Source: [Zimmermannella] faecalis ATCC 13722 (GTDB lineage Bacteria; Actinomycetota; Actinomycetes; Actinomycetales; Microbacteriaceae). From it: a DNA stretch of 64,000 nucleotides. Position numbers and translations under genes: made by a program. Below are positions 2,883 to 62,938 of the stretch, in pieces (position 1 is the first letter of the stretch; each line of letters begins with the position of its first letter). The notes under the pieces are model-generated. The model had not been told where the DNA came from and did not search any database. It saw only the letters and a list, made by a program, of their open reading frames with translations. The DNA lies in the NCBI RefSeq assembly GCF_000381765.1, contig NZ_KB907074.1:62001-126000 (forward strand), given 5' to 3'.

Positions 2883-3025
2883 CCGGGGCCCGGGGCGGGG
2901 CGTCGATGTGGCGCCGCCGCCCCGAACCCGGCTAAGTTTGGTTGGTATGCGTTTTGCGGGCCCGCTCGGGCGCGCGGCACACCCACGAGACGATTCCCGG
3001 CGGCCCCGGGAGAAGGAGCAGGTTG

Positions 3026-3802
3026 ATGGTTGCGAAGCACGTTCGCTGGAACGGTGAGGTTCAGCCCGAGGCGGTCGAGATCCTCGAGGCCGGCGGCGGC
3101 ATGGTGGTGAGCCCGACGAAGGTTGGCTACATCGTCGCGACGACCGACCTCGCGGGCCTCGAGCGCAAGTTTGCGGCGAAGAACCGCAAGCGCAACAAGC
3201 CCGCGGTCGTGCTCTGCGGCTCGCTCGACGAGCTGCGCACGCTCGCGCAGCTCAACCCCGAGATCGACGCGTTCTACGAAGCGCACTGGAACGGCGACAT
3301 TCTGCTCGGCTGCATTCTGCCGTGGTCGGAAGAGGGCAAGAAGTACATCCCCGAGGGCGCCGAAGAGCTCGTCATGGACGCGCGCGGCACGAGCTGCTTC
3401 GTCGTGAAGTTCGGCGTGCCCGGCGAGAACCTCGCCCGCTACATGTGGGAGACCCACAAGCAGCTCATCTTCGCGAGCTCGGCGAACCCGTCGGGCAAGG
3501 GCAATCGAGGCCTCGTCGAGGGCATCGGCGAGCAGATCGACGGCGAAGCCGACCTCGTGATCGAGGCCGACGACTACGTCGCCTCGATTCAGCCGAACGA
3601 GACCGTTGAGACCCGCTACGAGCAGGGCGTCATGGTGTCGATGGTCGACGCCGACGGCACCCTCGTGCCCGAGCAGAAGGGCGAGCGTCTCGTGTCGCCC
3701 GCGCCCGTACTCATTCGCCGCGGCCTCTACAACACCGAGATCATGGAGCTCCTCGCCGAGCACTTCCTCAGCTGGGACTACCGCCAGGGCATGTACTACT
3801 AG
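3026..3802 (+). CDS. YrdC/Sua5-domain protein (L-threonylcarbamoyladenylate synthase family)
   Basis: The 258-residue protein begins at an ATG preceded by AGAAGGAG at 3011-3018. A longer frame from a TTG at 2942 has no ribosome site and an unconserved N-terminus. The N-terminal half has YrdC features: VVSPTKVGYIVAT near 27, KNRKRNKPAVVLC near 52 and FASSANPSGKGN near 152, which includes the SxN motif that contacts nucleotide. Family enzymes make threonylcarbamoyl-AMP from threonine, bicarbonate and ATP for tRNA t6A. This subtype, with an extended C-terminal part, could instead be a YciO-like paralogue, so the exact reaction is uncertain. It stands alone, followed by hairpins at 3815 and 3837. 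Confidence 0.8.
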   Translation: MVAKHVRWNGEVQPEAVEILEAGGGMVVSPTKVGYIVATTDLAGLERKFAAKNRKRNKPAVVLCGSLDELRTLAQLNPEIDAFYEAHWNGDILLGCILPWSEEGKKYIPEGAEELVMDARGTSCFVVKFGVPGENLARYMWETHKQLIFASSANPSGKGNRGLVEGIGEQIDGEADLVIEADDYVASIQPNETVETRYEQGVMVSMVDADGTLVPEQKGERLVSPAPVLIRRGLYNTEIMELLAEHFLSWDYRQGMYY

Positions 3803-3900: not shown

Positions 3901-3988
3901 TCCGGCGGCCGTCATCGGTGATTTCGTGCGCACGAACATTCGCTTTTCGATGTACGCCCGGCGCACGGCTTGGAAGGGTAGGGGGCAT

Positions 3989-4114
3989 CGAAGGGGAGTA
4001 GTTCCCGCCCGCGTCCGCGGGTTTGCGACGTCGTCGACACACTGGTGCCTCGGGCACCCGGCGCGCCACCCCGCCACGGGGCGAGCGAGACCTTCGGCCA
4101 TTCCCTGGCCGAAG
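3989..4114 (+). promoter_or_regulatory. yybP-ykoY manganese riboswitch
   Basis: The leader carries the hallmark bases of the yybP-ykoY class. GGGGAGTAG is at 3993-4001, GTCGACACACTGG is at 4033-4045 and GCGAGACCTTCG is at 4085-4096. CGAAGG at 3989-3994 pairs with CCTTCG at 4091-4096 to form the closing helix. The 3-prime strand of that helix is reused in a hairpin, CTTCGGCCA at 4092-4100 with TGGCCGAAG at 4106-4114, so the two folds are mutually exclusive. No U-run follows, which suggests Rho-dependent or translational control rather than an intrinsic terminator. Known members bind Mn2+ and turn on Mn2+ efflux genes. The regulated start codon is at 4164, with GAGGAG at 4152-4157. The 361-base gap 3803-4163 holds this element plus two hairpins and no gene. 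Confidence 0.88.
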
Positions 4115-4163
4115 TGCATCCGCATCGCGTGTGCGTCGGCCGTGACCGACCGAGGAGCCCCGC

Positions 4164-5531
4164 ATGTCCACCACGCGAACCGCGCCCACGCCCGCCACAC
4201 CCACGTCCGCGCGCCGTGGCCTGCCGATGGGGCTCGTCGGCCGGCTCGCGGTGTGCCTCGCGATCGCGCTGCCCGCGATCGTCTTCCGCCTCGCCGGTCT
4301 GTCGGTGCATCCCGTCGTTGACGCGCTCGTGTTTGGCGCGGCCGTCGTCGCCGCATCGTTCGTGCTCGCCTGGGCAGCCGAGGCGGCGCAGAAGGACATT
4401 TCGGGTGGGCTCGCGATCGCGATCCTCGCGCTCATCGCGGTGCTTCCCGAATATGCGGTCGACCTGTTCTACGCGTTCCGGTCGGGGTCTGACCCGGAGT
4501 TCCTCCACTACGCCGCCGCGAACATGACCGGCTCAAACCGGTTGCTGCTCGGGTTCGGCTGGCCGCTCGTCGTGCTCATCGCGATCTGGGTCGCGAATCG
4601 CGCGCTCCGGGCCCGCCGTGCCGCGAAGACGCACACGCTCAACCTGCCCGAGACGGCGCGCTTCGACGTCGGGTTCCTCGCGCTGCTCGCGGTGCTCGCG
4701 TTCGCGATTCCGTTGCTCGGCGAGATTCCGATCTGGTTCGGGCTCGTGCTCATTGGCGCGTTTGTCGTGTACCTCTGGCGGTCGGGCCAGCAAGACGACG
4801 AGCGCGAAGAAGAGTTTGTCGGCACCGCGAAGCGAATCGCAGACCTGCCGCAGCGGGCGCGCCGCATCACGTTCACGTCGCTGTTCGTGGGTGCGGCCGC
4901 GATCATCCTGCTGTCGGCCGAGCCGTTCGCGACGAGCCTCGTCGAGTCTGGTACCGCGCTCGGGTTCGACCCGTACTTCCTCGTGCAGTGGCTCGCGCCG
5001 CTCGCCTCGGAGGCGCCGGAGTTCATCGTCGCGGTGCTGTTCGCGCTGCGCGGCATGGGTGCGGCCGCGATCGGTACGCTCATCGCTTCAAAGATCAACC
5101 AGTGGAGCCTGCTCGTCGGCTCGCTGCCGGTCGCGCACTGGCTCGGCGGTGGCGGCGGCGCGCTCGAACTCGACGCTCGGCAGATCGAAGAGTTCGTGCT
5201 CACCGGCGCGCAGACCGTCATGGGCGTCGCGATCATCGTCGGGCTGCGGTTCCACCGGTGGTCGGCGATCGCGCTCGCCGCGATCTTTGCGCTGCAGTTC
5301 TTCATCACCGACACCGAGGGGCGCTACGTGCTCTCGCTCGTGCAGCTGGCGGTCGCCGCACTGCTGCTCGTCGTGCACCGACGCGACATCGTGGCGACGC
5401 TGCGGGCACCGTTCGCGCGTGGTGGTGCGGGGGTCGCGGATGCGGGAGGGCCGCTGCCCGTTGCCGGTACCAGCCCAGGCTCTGAAGATTCGGGCCGTGC
5501 GTCGCGGGCGTCGGCCAGAATGGATGCGTGA
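4164..5531 (+). CDS. CaCA-superfamily cation exchanger, probable Mn2+ exporter
   Basis: The 455-residue protein has about ten hydrophobic segments in two halves. Each half has an alpha-repeat typical of Na+/Ca2+-type exchangers: LIAVLPEYAVDLFYAF with AANMTGSN near 90-120, and SEAPEFIVAVLFAL with IGTLIASKINQWSLLVG near 285-325. The acidic residues after the prolines are the expected cation ligands. A hydrophilic loop around residues 210-230 separates the halves. Such proteins are usually annotated as sodium:calcium or sodium:proton exchangers. The Mn2+ riboswitch upstream and the MntR-type regulator overlapping its stop codon argue that Mn2+ efflux is the real job; that is inference. Confidence 0.8.
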   Translation: MSTTRTAPTPATPTSARRGLPMGLVGRLAVCLAIALPAIVFRLAGLSVHPVVDALVFGAAVVAASFVLAWAAEAAQKDISGGLAIAILALIAVLPEYAVDLFYAFRSGSDPEFLHYAAANMTGSNRLLLGFGWPLVVLIAIWVANRALRARRAAKTHTLNLPETARFDVGFLALLAVLAFAIPLLGEIPIWFGLVLIGAFVVYLWRSGQQDDEREEEFVGTAKRIADLPQRARRITFTSLFVGAAAIILLSAEPFATSLVESGTALGFDPYFLVQWLAPLASEAPEFIVAVLFALRGMGAAAIGTLIASKINQWSLLVGSLPVAHWLGGGGGALELDARQIEEFVLTGAQTVMGVAIIVGLRFHRWSAIALAAIFALQFFITDTEGRYVLSLVQLAVAALLLVVHRRDIVATLRAPFARGGAGVADAGGPLPVAGTSPGSEDSGRASRASARMDA

Positions 5532-6196
5532 AAGCGGTGCAGACGGGCAGCAGTCGGGTTGAAGAGGACTACCTGCGGCTGATTTGGAAGGCCGAGGAAT
5601 GGGATGGGCGGGGCGCGACCCCGGCCGAGCTCGTCGCCGCGACGGGCACGGTGCCGTCGTCGGTGTCGGGCGCGCTCAACCGCCTCGCGCGGCGCGGGCT
5701 CATTCTGCACGAGCCGTACGGCTCGGCGACGCTCACCGACGACGGCCGGGTTATTGCGCTGCAGATGGTGCGGCGCCACCGGCTCATCGAGACGCTGCTC
5801 GTCGAACAGTTCGGGTTCGGGTGGGACGAAGTGCACGACGAGGCCGAGCACCTCGAGCACGCGGTGTCGGAGCGGCTGCTCGACCGCATCGATGACCTGC
5901 TCGGGTTCCCCGACCACGATCCGCACGGCGACCCGATCCCCGATAAGGCGGGGCGGCTCGATCGTCCCCGTGCCGACCGGTTGAGCGAGTTCGCGCAGGG
6001 GAGCGACGTGACCATCGTGCGCGTCTCCGACCACGAGCCTGCCCTGCTGCGGTATCTCGAGGAGCTTGGCATCGTGCCCGGCGCGCGCGTGCACGTGGTT
6101 GCACGCAACGAGTTCGCCGGGGCGCTACGGTTGCGAGTGCAAGACGACGAGGTGCAGCTCGCGATCGTCGCGGCGAATGCCGTGTGGGGGTCGTGA
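5528..6196 (+). CDS. mntR: Manganese-dependent DtxR/MntR-family regulator
   Basis: The 222-residue protein has a winged helix-turn-helix at about 10-75, a metal-binding dimerisation domain at about 75-150 (WDEVHDEAEHLEHAVSERL) and an SH3-like FeoA domain at the C-terminus. The EDYLRLIW segment has Asp where DtxR/IdeR has Met, as in Mn-selective MntR. Wording such as DPHGDPIP closely recalls M. tuberculosis MntR (Rv2788). The GTG start overlaps the exchanger stop (GTGA). CAGAAT lies 6 bases before the GTG and could be an internal leaderless promoter. With the riboswitch, the operon would sense Mn2+ both at RNA and protein level. Confidence 0.82.
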   Translation: MKAVQTGSSRVEEDYLRLIWKAEEWDGRGATPAELVAATGTVPSSVSGALNRLARRGLILHEPYGSATLTDDGRVIALQMVRRHRLIETLLVEQFGFGWDEVHDEAEHLEHAVSERLLDRIDDLLGFPDHDPHGDPIPDKAGRLDRPRADRLSEFAQGSDVTIVRVSDHEPALLRYLEELGIVPGARVHVVARNEFAGALRLRVQDDEVQLAIVAANAVWGS

Positions 6197-6222
6197 GCCC
6201 GCGAAAAGCGAAAGGGAGACGC

Positions 6223-7527
6223 GTGGCTGGGTTCGGAGTGGCTGGGTCGGATGTGGTTAGCACGGTCGAGGTCGCGCGGCAGCTCGCGGCGGGTGAGGTG
6301 ACCTCGGTCGAGCTCGTGACCGAGGCGCTGCGCCGGGCGCACGCGGCCGACGGCGCGTTCATCACGATCGACGATGCCGGGGCCCTGGGCGCCGCAGCTG
6401 AGGCCGACGCCCGCCGGGCCGCGGGCACGCCCCGGAGCGCGATCGACGGCGTGCCGACCGCGGTGAAAGACGTCATTGCGACGGCCGGGCTGCGCACGAC
6501 GATGGCGTCGGAGTTCTTCCGCGACGACGTGCCCACGACCGACGCCGATATCGTGCGGCGCCTGCGCGAGGCGGGCACCGTGCTCATTGGCAAGACGAAC
6601 GCGCAGGAGTTCTCGTACGGCATCCGCGGCGACGTCGGCGCGTTCGGTGCCGTGCCCAACCCGCACGACCCCGAGCGCGTACCGGGCGGCTCCAGCTCGG
6701 GCTCGGCGGCCGCGGTCGTCCTCGGCATCGTGCCGTTCGCGGTGGGGTCAGATACGGCCGGTTCGGTTCGCCTGCCGGCGGCACTCTGCGGCGTGGTCGG
6801 GTTCAAACCGACGCTCGGGCTCATCGATGCTGCCGGTGCGTTCCCCCTTTCGGAATCGTTCGACACGCTCGGGCTGCTGACGGCCGGCATTGACGATTCA
6901 CGCCTCGTGCTTGACGCGATTGGCGTGCTCGGTGCCGCAGGCGGCGCCGACGAGGCGGCACCGACGTTTCTCGCCCTCGGCGACCTGCGCGCGACCGTGG
7001 TCGACGCGCCCGCGGGCGTGCCCCACGACACGGCGGTCAGGATGCTCGGGGCAACCCCGGCGCGGCTGCCGCAAGTCGACGGCCGTGATGTTGACTTTGC
7101 CGAGCTCTACCGCATCGTGCGCTCGCGCGAGGCCTACGACCTGCACGAGGAGCGGGTCCGTACGGCCCCTGAGCGGTTCCAGCCCGAGATTCTCGACAAG
7201 GTGCGCTCGGGTGCCGACATCACCGACGCCGAGTACGCGGCCGGGCAGGCCGAGATCGCACGCGTGCGCGAGGCATTTGAGGCCGAGTTCGCCGATACCG
7301 ACGTGCTCATCGCCCCGACCTCACCCGTGCTCGCGCCGCGGTTCACCGACCCGGGCCCGAGCCGAGAGCTCTCGTCGGTCACGGTCATCTGGAACGTGCT
7401 CGGCTGGCCGGGCATCGCCTTGCCGATGTGGGTCGACGGCTGCGACCTGCCGCAGTCGGTACATCTCGCCGCACGGCCCGGCCGCGACGCGTTCCTGCTG
7501 CGCGCCGCGGCGGCGCTCGGCGGCTAG
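6223..7527 (+). CDS. Amidase signature family enzyme
   Basis: The 434-residue protein shows the Ser-cisSer-Lys triad of the amidase signature family: Lys in GVPTAVKDVI near residue 82, GGSSSGSAAAV near 157 and the nucleophile in GSDTAGSVRLPAALCG near 180. It hydrolyses an amide bond, but the substrate cannot be told from sequence. It is not GatA by context, since gatB and gatC are absent. GTG at 6223 is chosen because AAGGGAG lies at 6212-6218. A GTG at 6193 inside a GTGA overlap with mntR is the alternative. It is probably the third gene of the manganese operon. Its stop overlaps the convergent gene by 4 bases. Confidence 0.85.
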   Translation: MAGFGVAGSDVVSTVEVARQLAAGEVTSVELVTEALRRAHAADGAFITIDDAGALGAAAEADARRAAGTPRSAIDGVPTAVKDVIATAGLRTTMASEFFRDDVPTTDADIVRRLREAGTVLIGKTNAQEFSYGIRGDVGAFGAVPNPHDPERVPGGSSSGSAAAVVLGIVPFAVGSDTAGSVRLPAALCGVVGFKPTLGLIDAAGAFPLSESFDTLGLLTAGIDDSRLVLDAIGVLGAAGGADEAAPTFLALGDLRATVVDAPAGVPHDTAVRMLGATPARLPQVDGRDVDFAELYRIVRSREAYDLHEERVRTAPERFQPEILDKVRSGADITDAEYAAGQAEIARVREAFEAEFADTDVLIAPTSPVLAPRFTDPGPSRELSSVTVIWNVLGWPGIALPMWVDGCDLPQSVHLAARPGRDAFLLRAAAALGG

Positions 7528-59035: not shown

Positions 59036-59467
59036 ATGTTTCTTGGTACGTACTCGCCCAAGCTCGACGAGAAGGGCCGACTGATCCTCCCCGCGAAGTT
59101 CCGTGAGCAGCTCGCCGAGGGCGTGGTGCTCACGCGTGGGCAGGAACGGTGCATCTACGTGTTCTCGAACGCCGAGTTCGAGGGGTTTCACGACCGCATC
59201 CGTCAGGCACCCGTGACGAGCAAGCAGGCGCGCGACTACCTGCGCCTGCTGCTGTCGGGAGCCCACGCCGAAGTTCCCGACAAGCAGGGCCGCGTCACCC
59301 TGCCGCAGCAGCTGCGGCAGTACGCGGGCCTCGACCGTGAGCTCGCGGTGATCGGTGCGGGAAGCCGCGCCGAGATCTGGGATGCCGAGGCCTGGAACAA
59401 CTACGTAACCGCAAACGAAGCCGCGTTCTCCGAGACCGCAGAGGAGGTGATCCCGGGACTGTTCTAA
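59036..59467 (+). CDS. mraZ: Transcriptional regulator MraZ
   Basis: The 143-residue protein has the two SpoVT-AbrB-like repeats: [24 protein letters not shown] at the start and [22 protein letters not shown] near 78. It binds the repeats upstream of its own operon and represses the division cluster. ATG 59036 is used because AGGGGAGG at 59020-59027 lies 8 bases before it; GTG 59030 is too close. The rsmH gene follows. Confidence 0.95.
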
Positions 59468-59569
59468 CCCTGTCGTGTGGCCCAGAGTCGGTCACCCTGA
59501 CGCACCTTCCCCGGCGCCAGGTTGAGTGACTCGGGACCACGCGGCAGGGCGAGAACTCAGCGGAATGCG

Positions 59570-61156: not shown

Positions 61157-62938
61157 ATGGCCAAGACGCGCCGACGCAGCAGCCGGGCGACCCCCGTGCT
61201 CCTCGTCATCGTGTTCGTCATCGTGCTGTTCGCCGGACGCCTGCTGACCCTGCAGGTGTTCGACGCGAGCGCAATCAACGCGGAGGCTGATGGCCGCCGT
61301 GGGCAGACCTCGACCCTGTGGGGCACGCGCGGATCGATCACCGACGCGAACGGTGCCGTCCTGGCGTCGAGCGTCGACCGCTTTGACATCACGCTCGCAC
61401 CGGTGAACATGAAGGACTTCAAGCGGCTCAACCCCGAGACGAACAAGTACGAGGAAATCTCGGTGCAGCAATCGCTCGAGCAGATCGCCGATGCCATCGA
61501 TAAGGACGCCGACGATCTCAAGGCGTCGGTCGACGCGGTGCTCGCGGCCGACCCCGATGCGCAGTTCGGCTACCTCGCGCAGGGCGTGACGCTCGAGCAA
61601 TACCAGGCCGTTCGCGACCTGCGCATCCCGTGGGTGTACTTCGAGCGGCACCCCGAACGCACGTATCCGAGCGGCGCCGTCGCGGGCAACCTCTCGGGAT
61701 TCGTCGGCAGCGACGGCACGCCGCTTGCCGGGCTCGAGCTGCAGTACGACGCCTGTCTCGCCGGGCAGAACGGCGAGGAGACGTTCGAGCGCTCGCAAGA
61801 CGGCGTCGCGATTCCCGGTTCGGTTGTCACGGTTTCGGATCCGGTGCAGGGCGGCACGCTGCAGCTCACGATTGACACCGACACGCAGTGGCGCGCCGAC
61901 CAGATCATCGCCGAGCAGGTGCAGAAGACGAACGCGCTCTACGGCACCATCACCGTCGTCGACGTGAAGTCGGGCGCGCTCGTGGCCGCCTCCGAGTATC
62001 CGATCGTCGACCCCAACGACCCCGGCGAAAGCGATGCTGACGACCGCGGTTCGCGGACCTTCACCGCGCCGTATGAGCCCGGCTCGATCATGAAGCCGAT
62101 CACGGCATCGATGCTCTACGACCAGGGCGTGCTCGACCCCTCCGAGGTCATCACGGTGCCCGACACGTGGGACAAGAACGGCGCGAAATTCGGCGACGAC
62201 GCGCCCCACGACCCCGTCAAGATGAACATGAACGGCGTGCTCACGGAGTCGTCGAACGTCGGCACGGCGACCTTCGCCGATCGCCTCTCGGCACAGACCC
62301 GGCACGACTACCTGCTCAGCTACGGCCTCAACGAGACCACCGGGGTGAACTTCCTGGGCGAAGAACCGGGCATCGTGCGACCGGCCGAAGACTGGGATGC
62401 GCAGACGAACTACGCGTCGACGTTCGGCCACGGCGTCACCGCGACCGTTGCCCAGATGGCGAGCGCCTACCAGGCCCTCGCGAACGGCGGTTCGCACATC
62501 CCGCTGCAGCTCATCTCAGGCTGCACGCTCGAGGACGGCACCGTCACCGACCAGCCCGACACGACCCCGAGCCAGGTCGTCTCGCCAGAGGCTGCCGAGC
62601 TCGCGCTCGAGGGCATGGAATCCGTCGCACGAGAGGGCTGGCTCGCCGACCAGGTGCAGGTGCCCGGCTACCGCGTCGGCATCAAGACCGGTACCTCGGA
62701 GCGCGTCGACGCCGAGTCCGGCACGTACATTCACGGTTCGAACAACGTGTCGATGGTCGGAGTCGCCCCTATCGACGATCCGCAATACGTTGTGCTCGTG
62801 ACGTTGGCCGACCCGACTACCATCACTACGAGCGCGGCCACCGCGCCGGCGTGGCAGCAGACGATGTCCTATGTGCTCTCCGCCAACAACGTCGCGCCCT
62901 CGCCGCAGCCGTATCCAGAAATCGACATCGTTCACTAG
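61157..62938 (+). CDS. ftsI: Penicillin-binding protein FtsI/PbpB (septal transpeptidase)
   Basis: The 593-residue class B penicillin-binding protein has one N-terminal membrane helix (about 16-34), a dimerisation domain with WGTRGSITDANGAVLASSVD near 55 and the transpeptidase domain. The catalytic motifs are PGSIMKPI (SxxK), ESSNVGT (SxN) and IKTGTSE (KTG). It crosslinks peptidoglycan at the division site. ATG 61157 follows AAGGAG at 61144-61149. It lies 49 bases after the ftsL-like gene. Confidence 0.95.
   Translation: MAKTRRRSSRATPVLLVIVFVIVLFAGRLLTLQVFDASAINAEADGRRGQTSTLWGTRGSITDANGAVLASSVDRFDITLAPVNMKDFKRLNPETNKYEEISVQQSLEQIADAIDKDADDLKASVDAVLAADPDAQFGYLAQGVTLEQYQAVRDLRIPWVYFERHPERTYPSGAVAGNLSGFVGSDGTPLAGLELQYDACLAGQNGEETFERSQDGVAIPGSVVTVSDPVQGGTLQLTIDTDTQWRADQIIAEQVQKTNALYGTITVVDVKSGALVAASEYPIVDPNDPGESDADDRGSRTFTAPYEPGSIMKPITASMLYDQGVLDPSEVITVPDTWDKNGAKFGDDAPHDPVKMNMNGVLTESSNVGTATFADRLSAQTRHDYLLSYGLNETTGVNFLGEEPGIVRPAEDWDAQTNYASTFGHGVTATVAQMASAYQALANGGSHIPLQLISGCTLEDGTVTDQPDTTPSQVVSPEAAELALEGMESVAREGWLADQVQVPGYRVGIKTGTSERVDAESGTYIHGSNNVSMVGVAPIDDPQYVVLVTLADPTTITTSAATAPAWQQTMSYVLSANNVAPSPQPYPEIDIVH

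Follow-up and report, generated by a model that had tools for sequence, protein, structure and literature searches.

The 64,000-nucleotide window analyzed here (positions 62,001 to 126,000 of contig NZ_KB907074.1 from [Zimmermannella] faecalis ATCC 13722) holds on its forward strand a leader RNA that homology assigns to the yybP-ykoY type, followed by genes for an exchanger of the CaCA superfamily and for an MntR-type regulator. We consider it likely that positions 3989–4114 form a Mn2+-responsive ON switch of the yybP-ykoY class, that the exchanger is a CAX_Af-type Mn2+ exporter and that the linked regulator is a second MntR working at an upstream dyad. Support at the level of the sequence comes from conservation, structure, the ligand core, the gene context, a competing hairpin and the closeness of the regulator to MntR; from there we infer Mn2+ as ligand and substrate, the direction of switching, the mode of termination and the action of MntR at the dyad. 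This interpretation is preferred because the helices of the leader covary, its Mn-sensing adenosine is invariant, a model of the leader finds that of Escherichia coli mntP, 137 of 140 related leaders precede transporter genes, 113 of 121 can form the competing hairpin, MntR homologues flank 20 of 80 exchanger relatives, and precedents exist in an attenuation example from Streptomyces coelicolor and in BP3410 of Bordetella pertussis.

In the proposed mechanism, Mn2+ bound between the loops L1 and L3 would hold helix P1.1, the hairpin at 4092–4114 would be blocked and the exchanger gene would be expressed; without Mn2+, the 3' strand of P1.1 would pair into that hairpin and expression would stop. 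The exchanger, a CAX_Af-type antiporter, would export Mn2+. The overlapping mntR would encode an additional MntR that goes with the exporter and is separate from that next to the operon of an ATP-binding cassette (ABC) importer, and would probably act on the dyad at 3923–3936, near the promoter. Such an operon would pass a protein checkpoint at initiation and then an RNA checkpoint.

The putative aptamer (P1.1, L1, the P2 region, P3 with L3, and P4) occupies positions 3989–4096 of the forward strand, on which the exchanger, regulator and amidase genes also lie, and it is supported by a match to our own covariance-type model (R1), a local match to the Rfam family RF00080 and covariation. The blocks CGAAGGGGAGUAG, GUCGACAYACUGG, CCCGGC and CGAGACCUUCG recur just upstream of many related exchangers, for which we used 80 named loci (the best 80 of 227) plus sampled genomes. 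From these the alignment A1 was assembled, comprising 42 leaders: the window, 37 from the named loci and four others. Its rows were found through the blocks GGGGAGUA and GAGACC, the conservation of which partly reflects this selection, and L3, P3 and P4 played no part in the choice. The consensus structure of A1 has 20 pairs, eight of them with changes on both sides, and reaches a covariation score of 0.333 versus 0.136 (standard deviation 0.009) in shuffles, none of 500 being as high; when slid, the alignment gave at most 0.097. The count of pairs with two-sided changes is less telling, being reached by 45 of the 500 shuffles. Helices P1.1, P3 and P4 were all recovered by this run, and P2 is absent from the consensus. 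The strands of P1.1, CGAAGG (3989–3994) and CCUUCG (4091–4096), are paired in 100% of cells and are nearly invariant, so that P1.1 lies outside the covariation test; P3, the third helix of the run (4030–4036 with 4059–4065), is paired in 94.7% of cells and has four pairs with two-sided changes.

R1, built from A1, matched the window at 3989–4096 with 79 bits (E 2.4e-18), the window being one of its training rows. It also scored above 50 bits upstream of 42 of the 80 named exchanger relatives, 37 of these 42 being training rows. Outside the training set, R1 found the leader of E. coli mntP (25.1 bits, E 9e-4), and its next-best match outside exchanger leaders scored 20.7 bits.

The ligand core of the class is present: L1, L3 and the Mn-sensing adenosine are all found, in rows that were picked by the L1 block and not by L3. 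L1 (GGAGUAG, 3995–4001) has invariant columns, GGGGAGUA having served in row choice, and L3 (ACACACU, 4037–4043) includes A4039, which is invariant in 42 of 42 rows. In the Xanthomonas oryzae loop ACA48U49ACU52 the Mn-specific ligand is the N7 of A48, equivalent to A41 in the Lactococcus lactis loop UCA41AU43UC (PMC6754395), and A4039 aligns with both. The L3 loop of E. coli mntP reads ACAUACU, and one difference is consistent: the P3 pair beside L3 is G-C in the actinobacterial leaders versus A-U in E. coli mntP. The A-to-G change of the clade concerns this base pair and not the Mn-sensing adenosine; a G at the sensing position was considered and ruled out, the X. oryzae loop mapping A41 of L. 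lactis onto the conserved A4039 (PMC6754395). The hallmark bases that the original prediction, made from the letters of the window alone, had seen at 3989–4114 are present: CGAAGG-GGAGUAG at 3989–4001, GUCG-ACACACU at 4033–4043 and CGAGACCUUCG ending at 4096.

The RNA is widespread in actinobacteria. R1 matched 138 of 296 genomes in a sample of the class at E 0.001, and RF00080 matched 11 of the 296 at E 0.01 and none at its own cut-off, both runs using stricter filters; in the family sample, R1 matched 86 of 299 genomes. The two samples together gave 238 matches (that of the window counted twice), and we examined 140 of them, namely the 60 best-first loci and 80 picked by hand across genera and scores. 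All but three (137 of 140) stand directly 5' of a gene from one of six transporter classes, the upstream position known for yybP-ykoY leaders: GDT1/UPF0016 (55), VIT1 (39), MntP (15), TerC (14), exchangers of the window type (12, window included) and an NCX-like exchanger (2). Gene identity played no role in the search; the training set of R1 did consist of exchanger leaders, however, and some of these are again among the 12. Pfam confirmed one member of each class. Two matches, L247 and L283, lie within coding sequence and were taken as false, and at L286:2001-2105 a leader with the core blocks precedes a gene that Pfam left unexplained. The low-scoring R1 matches belong mainly to a second subtype of the leader, which scores only 34–50 bits and precedes genes of the TerC family (L238–L246, L260, L269, L277, L279 and L282). 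Its L1 reads GGAGUA[U/C], with GUCAAUACGG often found around L3, and it accounts for 14 of the 19 loci in which the full core is lacking. The VIT1 targets (L190, L198, L230, L232 and 35 further loci of L189–L237) are about 360–390 amino acids long and have a ferritin-like N-terminal stretch; their VIT1 domain (PF01988) was confirmed in L190 only. These proteins are candidates for a class of Mn exporters in Microbacteriaceae, and neither they nor the CAX_Af-type exchangers appear in a 2022 list of Mn exporters.

Older annotations of the element exist: three copies in Corynebacterium glutamicum with Rfam scores of 43.7–49.9, one of them at terC (PMC3890552), one in C. pseudotuberculosis at 40.9 (PMC3917459), and the yybP element of S. 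coelicolor SCO2347, given as an example of attenuation (PMC4681348). The class was thus already known in actinobacteria, and the present cut-off understates how far it extends there.

Downstream of the aptamer, the sequence CUUCGGCCA-UUCCC-UGGCCGAAG (4092–4114) can fold into a hairpin with a stem of nine and a loop of five, the probable OFF state. It has its 5' part in common with the 3' strand of the outer helix 3989–3994/4091–4096, as the original prediction of a closing helix in competition with a downstream hairpin had it. The same opposition of P1.1 to a downstream structure, as known for the class, recurs among the relatives: in 113 of 121 loci a downstream sequence can pair with the 3' strand of P1.1 over 7 bp or more. 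The pairing averages 8.9 bp, as compared with 5.7 bp in mononucleotide shuffles, where 7 bp is reached in 22% of cases. The 121 loci are 120 of the 140 examined plus L137, which replaced its duplicate L248; the 19 that lack the full core were left out.

The exchanger (4164–5531, 455 amino acids, a predicted Mn2+ exporter) follows a Shine-Dalgarno-like GAGGAG at 4152–4157. Its assignment to the CaCA superfamily stood up well: PF01699 matches in two stretches with 78.2 bits against a cut-off of 24.9, which together with the acidic residues of the site gives the two-repeat architecture of CaCA/CAX proteins. The cut-off of the NCBIfam calcium/sodium antiporter family TIGR00367 was not reached (27.7 of 179.65 bits). 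A search of the PDB at E up to 1 returned a sole match, 4kpp (E 6.6e-73, residues 33–415). E96, E283 and E286 of the exchanger are the counterparts of E78, E255 and E258 in 4kpp, and every one of the 81 actinobacterial rows has them. The substrate is not readable from the sequence of the exchanger, and Mn2+ export, which the original prediction had proposed, is suggested by association with the leader and the regulator. A precedent is provided by BP3410, a CaCA protein of B. pertussis under a yybP-ykoY leader that exports Mn2+ (PMC8546581). In the family sample, the exchanger occurs in 22 of 299 genomes at E <1e-30 (one a fragment), 14 of them with R1 directly upstream; a repeated R1 search of the loci at E 0.1 gave none in seven of the remaining eight, the eighth (G035) lying outside this search. 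Within the genus it was found in one of 11 species, that of the window, and the MntR nearest to the linked regulator comes from Granulicoccus (see below), a pattern of either transfer or scattered loss. A related exchanger, 66% identical to that of the window, was noticed on a 6.3-kb contig labelled Stenotrophomonas maltophilia (L079), with a truncated R1 match at the contig edge; this is either contamination or transfer.

The regulator (5528–6196, 222 amino acids) is encoded by an open reading frame that runs over the exchanger stop (GTGA), as had been predicted, and the RNA, the exchanger and the regulator probably form one operon. Its DtxR DNA-binding, dimerization and FeoA domains are all present (PF01325, PF02742, PF04023). 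The best PDB match over the full length is 5zr4 (E 1.1e-59), which like 5zr6 we take to be the MntR of Mycobacterium tuberculosis (the entry itself reads metal-dependent transcriptional regulator), as compared with E 2.4e-21 for the iron regulator IdeR (1fx7). The protein is therefore closer to the manganese than to the iron regulator, and it has MntR-type metal ligands at the residues that we assume to be such. None of the NCBIfam MntR equivalog cut-offs was reached, the best being NF047407 with 164.9 of 350 bits. Three DtxR-family genes were found in the genome: that of the window, a second that is convergent to a ZnuA/MntA-type ABC operon and 43% identical to the regulator of the window, and a third of the DtxR/IdeR type (33%), so that the regulator of the window appears by sequence as one of two MntR types. 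Two Nramp-family matches were also found in this genome, and no GDT1 match. In a quick tree, made by a short search and with the ABC-operon and IdeR rows on long branches, the ABC-operon regulator joined the M. tuberculosis protein (Shimodaira–Hasegawa-like approximate likelihood ratio test, SH-aLRT, 97), and the regulator of the window joined that of Granulicoccus (Propionibacteriaceae; SH-aLRT 99), near convergent exporter-linked ones. Among the 80 named exchanger loci, 20 have an MntR homologue in the flanks that were fetched, in both orientations: 16 of the 42 with R1 and four of the 38 without. In the shorter R1 loci (L136–L287), MntR was found only in four exchanger loci, namely L136 and L150 from the same genome, L152 (the window) and L183.

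Upstream of the leader, a dyad search found the perfect 14-bp dyad TTCGTGCGCACGAA at 3923–3936, which is a candidate operator of the MntR-type regulator. Sites resembling TTCGGGNNCCCGAA (at most three mismatches of 12) are present in 17 of 36 exchanger leaders, where mononucleotide shuffles predict 2.0; in 13 of these leaders the site lies at −56 to −76 from the aptamer. Elsewhere they occur in 6 of 51 GDT1 leaders (2.6 expected), 5 of 41 in the VIT1 set, which includes two distant GDT1 loci (2.2), 1 of 15 MntP leaders (0.95) and neither of the two leaders of the other exchanger. Of the 36 exchanger leaders, six have a site resembling GGTGTGNGTNGACACACC (at most four mismatches; 0.18 expected), in each case at −44 or −45 and with a same-strand MntR downstream; two of the 51 GDT1 leaders have one as well (0.21 expected). 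These patterns were picked after looking at the leaders, and the rows are related, which makes these counts a lead only. A general dyad score was raised in the same-strand MntR set (6.88 versus 6.07, standard deviation 0.22), less so in the convergent set (6.71 versus 6.21, standard deviation 0.27) and not in the VIT1 set.

A number of results weigh against this interpretation, and they are taken here part by part with the alternatives that they favor. Concerning the leader itself, the scan with RF00080, by which the original prediction had proposed to be judged, failed: at the gathering score of 45 bits there is no match in the window or in the whole genome (2,847,348 bases), and a relaxed threshold yields a single local match to the P3/L3 core (4032–4063, 20.3 bits, E 0.0013 for 501 bases). 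This cut-off is strict, being passed by 0 of 296 class genomes and 2 of 14 control genomes. Folded alone, the leader is no better than its shuffles (z −0.86), and the minimum-free-energy structure lacks the aptamer. Finally, 38 of the 80 exchanger relatives show no R1 match above 50 bits; three of these loci have fewer than 420 bases upstream, and in one of the three a match is cut by the contig end. Despite the failure with RF00080, we accept the leader as real because of the R1 comparison, with its covarying helices, intact Mn-sensing adenosine and recovery of E. coli mntP, and by homology it belongs to the yybP-ykoY Mn2+ riboswitch class although it scores below the Rfam cut-off.

Concerning the mode of control, no U-tract (intrinsic) terminator was detected in the window leader. 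This would suit a translational switch, in which the opening of P1.1 lets the hairpin and the helices downstream of it cover the Shine-Dalgarno sequence; E. coli mntP has been described as a translational riboswitch (PMC11647493), and several leaders repeat segments resembling CUUCGG/CCGAAG close to the start codon. Folding gave little sign of such a switch, the openness of the Shine-Dalgarno sequence being nearly constant (on average 0.30 when P1.1 is free and 0.32 when it is held, with an increase in 21 of 34 leaders) in a test that leaves out the aptamer and its ligand. We hold translational control to be possible, though rather unlikely; in the OFF state, transcription would most likely end prematurely, either through Rho or at a terminator that lacks a U tract. 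Rho termination was shown for E. coli mntP (PMC11647493), and the anti-terminator of L. lactis has the same arrangement of a P1.1 strand competing with a downstream hairpin (PMC9190785, PMC6754395).

The role of the regulator is open to a similar doubt: its gene may be an unrelated neighbor that does not regulate the operon, the dyad serving another factor. MntR homologues are absent from the fetched flanks of 60 of the 80 relatives, dyads occur also in leaders without a nearby MntR (e.g., L056, L058 and L061), and the dyads upstream of the importer genes of the genome differ, a dyad common to the window and the promoters of its ABC importer and Nramp genes not being supported. Nevertheless, the 20 loci that do carry MntR do so in both orientations, and the type of dyad tracks the MntR neighbor, the GTGTG-CACAC type being seen in six leaders, each of which has a same-strand MntR downstream. 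Moreover, the MntR of the window and that of Granulicoccus belong to one clade (SH-aLRT 99), and the two loci also have the dyad in common. We regard an unrelated regulator as a minority possibility and retain control by a linked MntR.

As to the metal, the nearest solved homologue of the exchanger is 4kpp, which we take to be CAX_Af, an H+/Ca2+ exchanger, and the acidic residues of its site are conserved. At a level of 80% in each group (81 rows), no position tells riboswitch-linked exchangers from unlinked ones. The leader could accordingly respond to Ca2+, or to Ca2+ and Mn2+, with the exchanger keeping the Ca2+/H+ activity of CAX_Af and the MntR neighbor reflecting metal cross-talk; some yybP variants may sense other metals, such metal-shifted variants being expected (PMC7266159), and the pneumococcal mgtA yybP-ykoY aptamer is described as binding Ca2+ (PMC9495176). 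We judge this very improbable, considering that the same RNA clade precedes MntP, GDT1, TerC and VIT1 genes, that the Mn-specific adenosine never varies in A1, that an MntR-type regulator lies near a quarter of the exchanger relatives (20 of 80) and that calcium had no effect on expression of BP3410, which is stated as data not shown (PMC8546581).

The locus resembles several known systems in part. Like BP3410, it places a CaCA-superfamily protein behind a Mn2+-responsive type of yybP-ykoY leader, with Mn export reported for BP3410; the closest crystallized homologue of BP3410 is NCX_Mj, whereas the protein of the window matched only 4kpp, and the available text on BP3410 makes no mention of a linked mntR (PMC8546581). 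E. coli mntP encodes a Mn exporter and is controlled by MntR as well as by a yybP-ykoY riboswitch (PMC11647493); R1 matched its leader, but the exporter is of the MntP family and mntR is not among the genes within 2.5 kb around mntP. The aptamers of L. lactis yoaB and X. oryzae have the L1/L3 metal core and a P1.1 competing with a downstream hairpin but act on a transcription terminator (PMC9190785, PMC6754395), whereas the hairpin of the window lacks a U tract. CAX_Af is homologous over residues 33–415, with the counterparts of E78, E255 and E258 kept; it is presumably an H+/Ca2+ protein, whereas the exchanger of the window is linked to a Mn-type riboswitch and to MntR. The presumed M. tuberculosis MntR (5zr4/5zr6) shows full-length homology to the regulator of the window but joins the other MntR of the genome, beside the ABC importer operon.

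A riboswitch-controlled CaCA Mn exporter and joint control by MntR and a riboswitch have both been published (PMC8546581 and PMC11647493, respectively), and neither idea is new; the original prediction overstated its case in calling the arrangement uncharacterized. What stood is narrower: an mntR gene inside a riboswitch-controlled operon was not found described in the literature searched, which reached few subscription papers and neither founding paper of 2015. New are the linked exporter-specific mntR, the CAX_Af subfamily as a target, the extent of the actinobacterial clade and the VIT1 targets. We would give about even chances to a broader view, according to which a distinct Mn2+ riboswitch clade, missed by Rfam scoring, is present in close to half of the Actinomycetes sampled and commands MntP, GDT1 and TerC together with CAX_Af-type exchangers and VIT1 proteins that have a ferritin-like N-terminal stretch, and in some lineages the exchanger with its own MntR paralogue and matching operator forms a self-contained, two-checkpoint module for Mn overflow. 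If the clade responds to Mn2+, it provides a clue to what several classes of transporter carry, including CAX_Af-type exchangers, for which the sequence would suggest calcium, and VIT1 proteins, named for iron. The present RF00080 cut-off also appears to miss most members in one bacterial class. An operon that senses one metal through both an RNA and a protein would allow a direct test of the division of work between the two sensors.

Behind the regulator lies an amidase gene (6184–7527, PF01425), with a likely start at GTG 6223 behind AAAGGGAG, as judged by inspection. The gene itself was predicted correctly and is probably co-transcribed with the exchanger and regulator genes. It is not part of a conserved unit: among the 80 named exchanger relatives, the amidase query matched only in L080 and L091, beside MntR in neither, and its proposed membership of the operon did not hold up in this comparison. 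Upstream of the leader are two overlapping genes for CNNM-type membrane proteins (430–2882) and then a Sua5/YciO-type gene (2942–3802). Synteny with the Sua5-like neighbor in the genus was considered and is unsupported; two other species of the 11 have a Sua5-like gene, and its 1.5-kb flanks gave no exchanger, MntR or amidase match in either. Finally, elsewhere in the window, an mraW RNA (RF01746) was detected at 59462–59559 with 58.3 bits.

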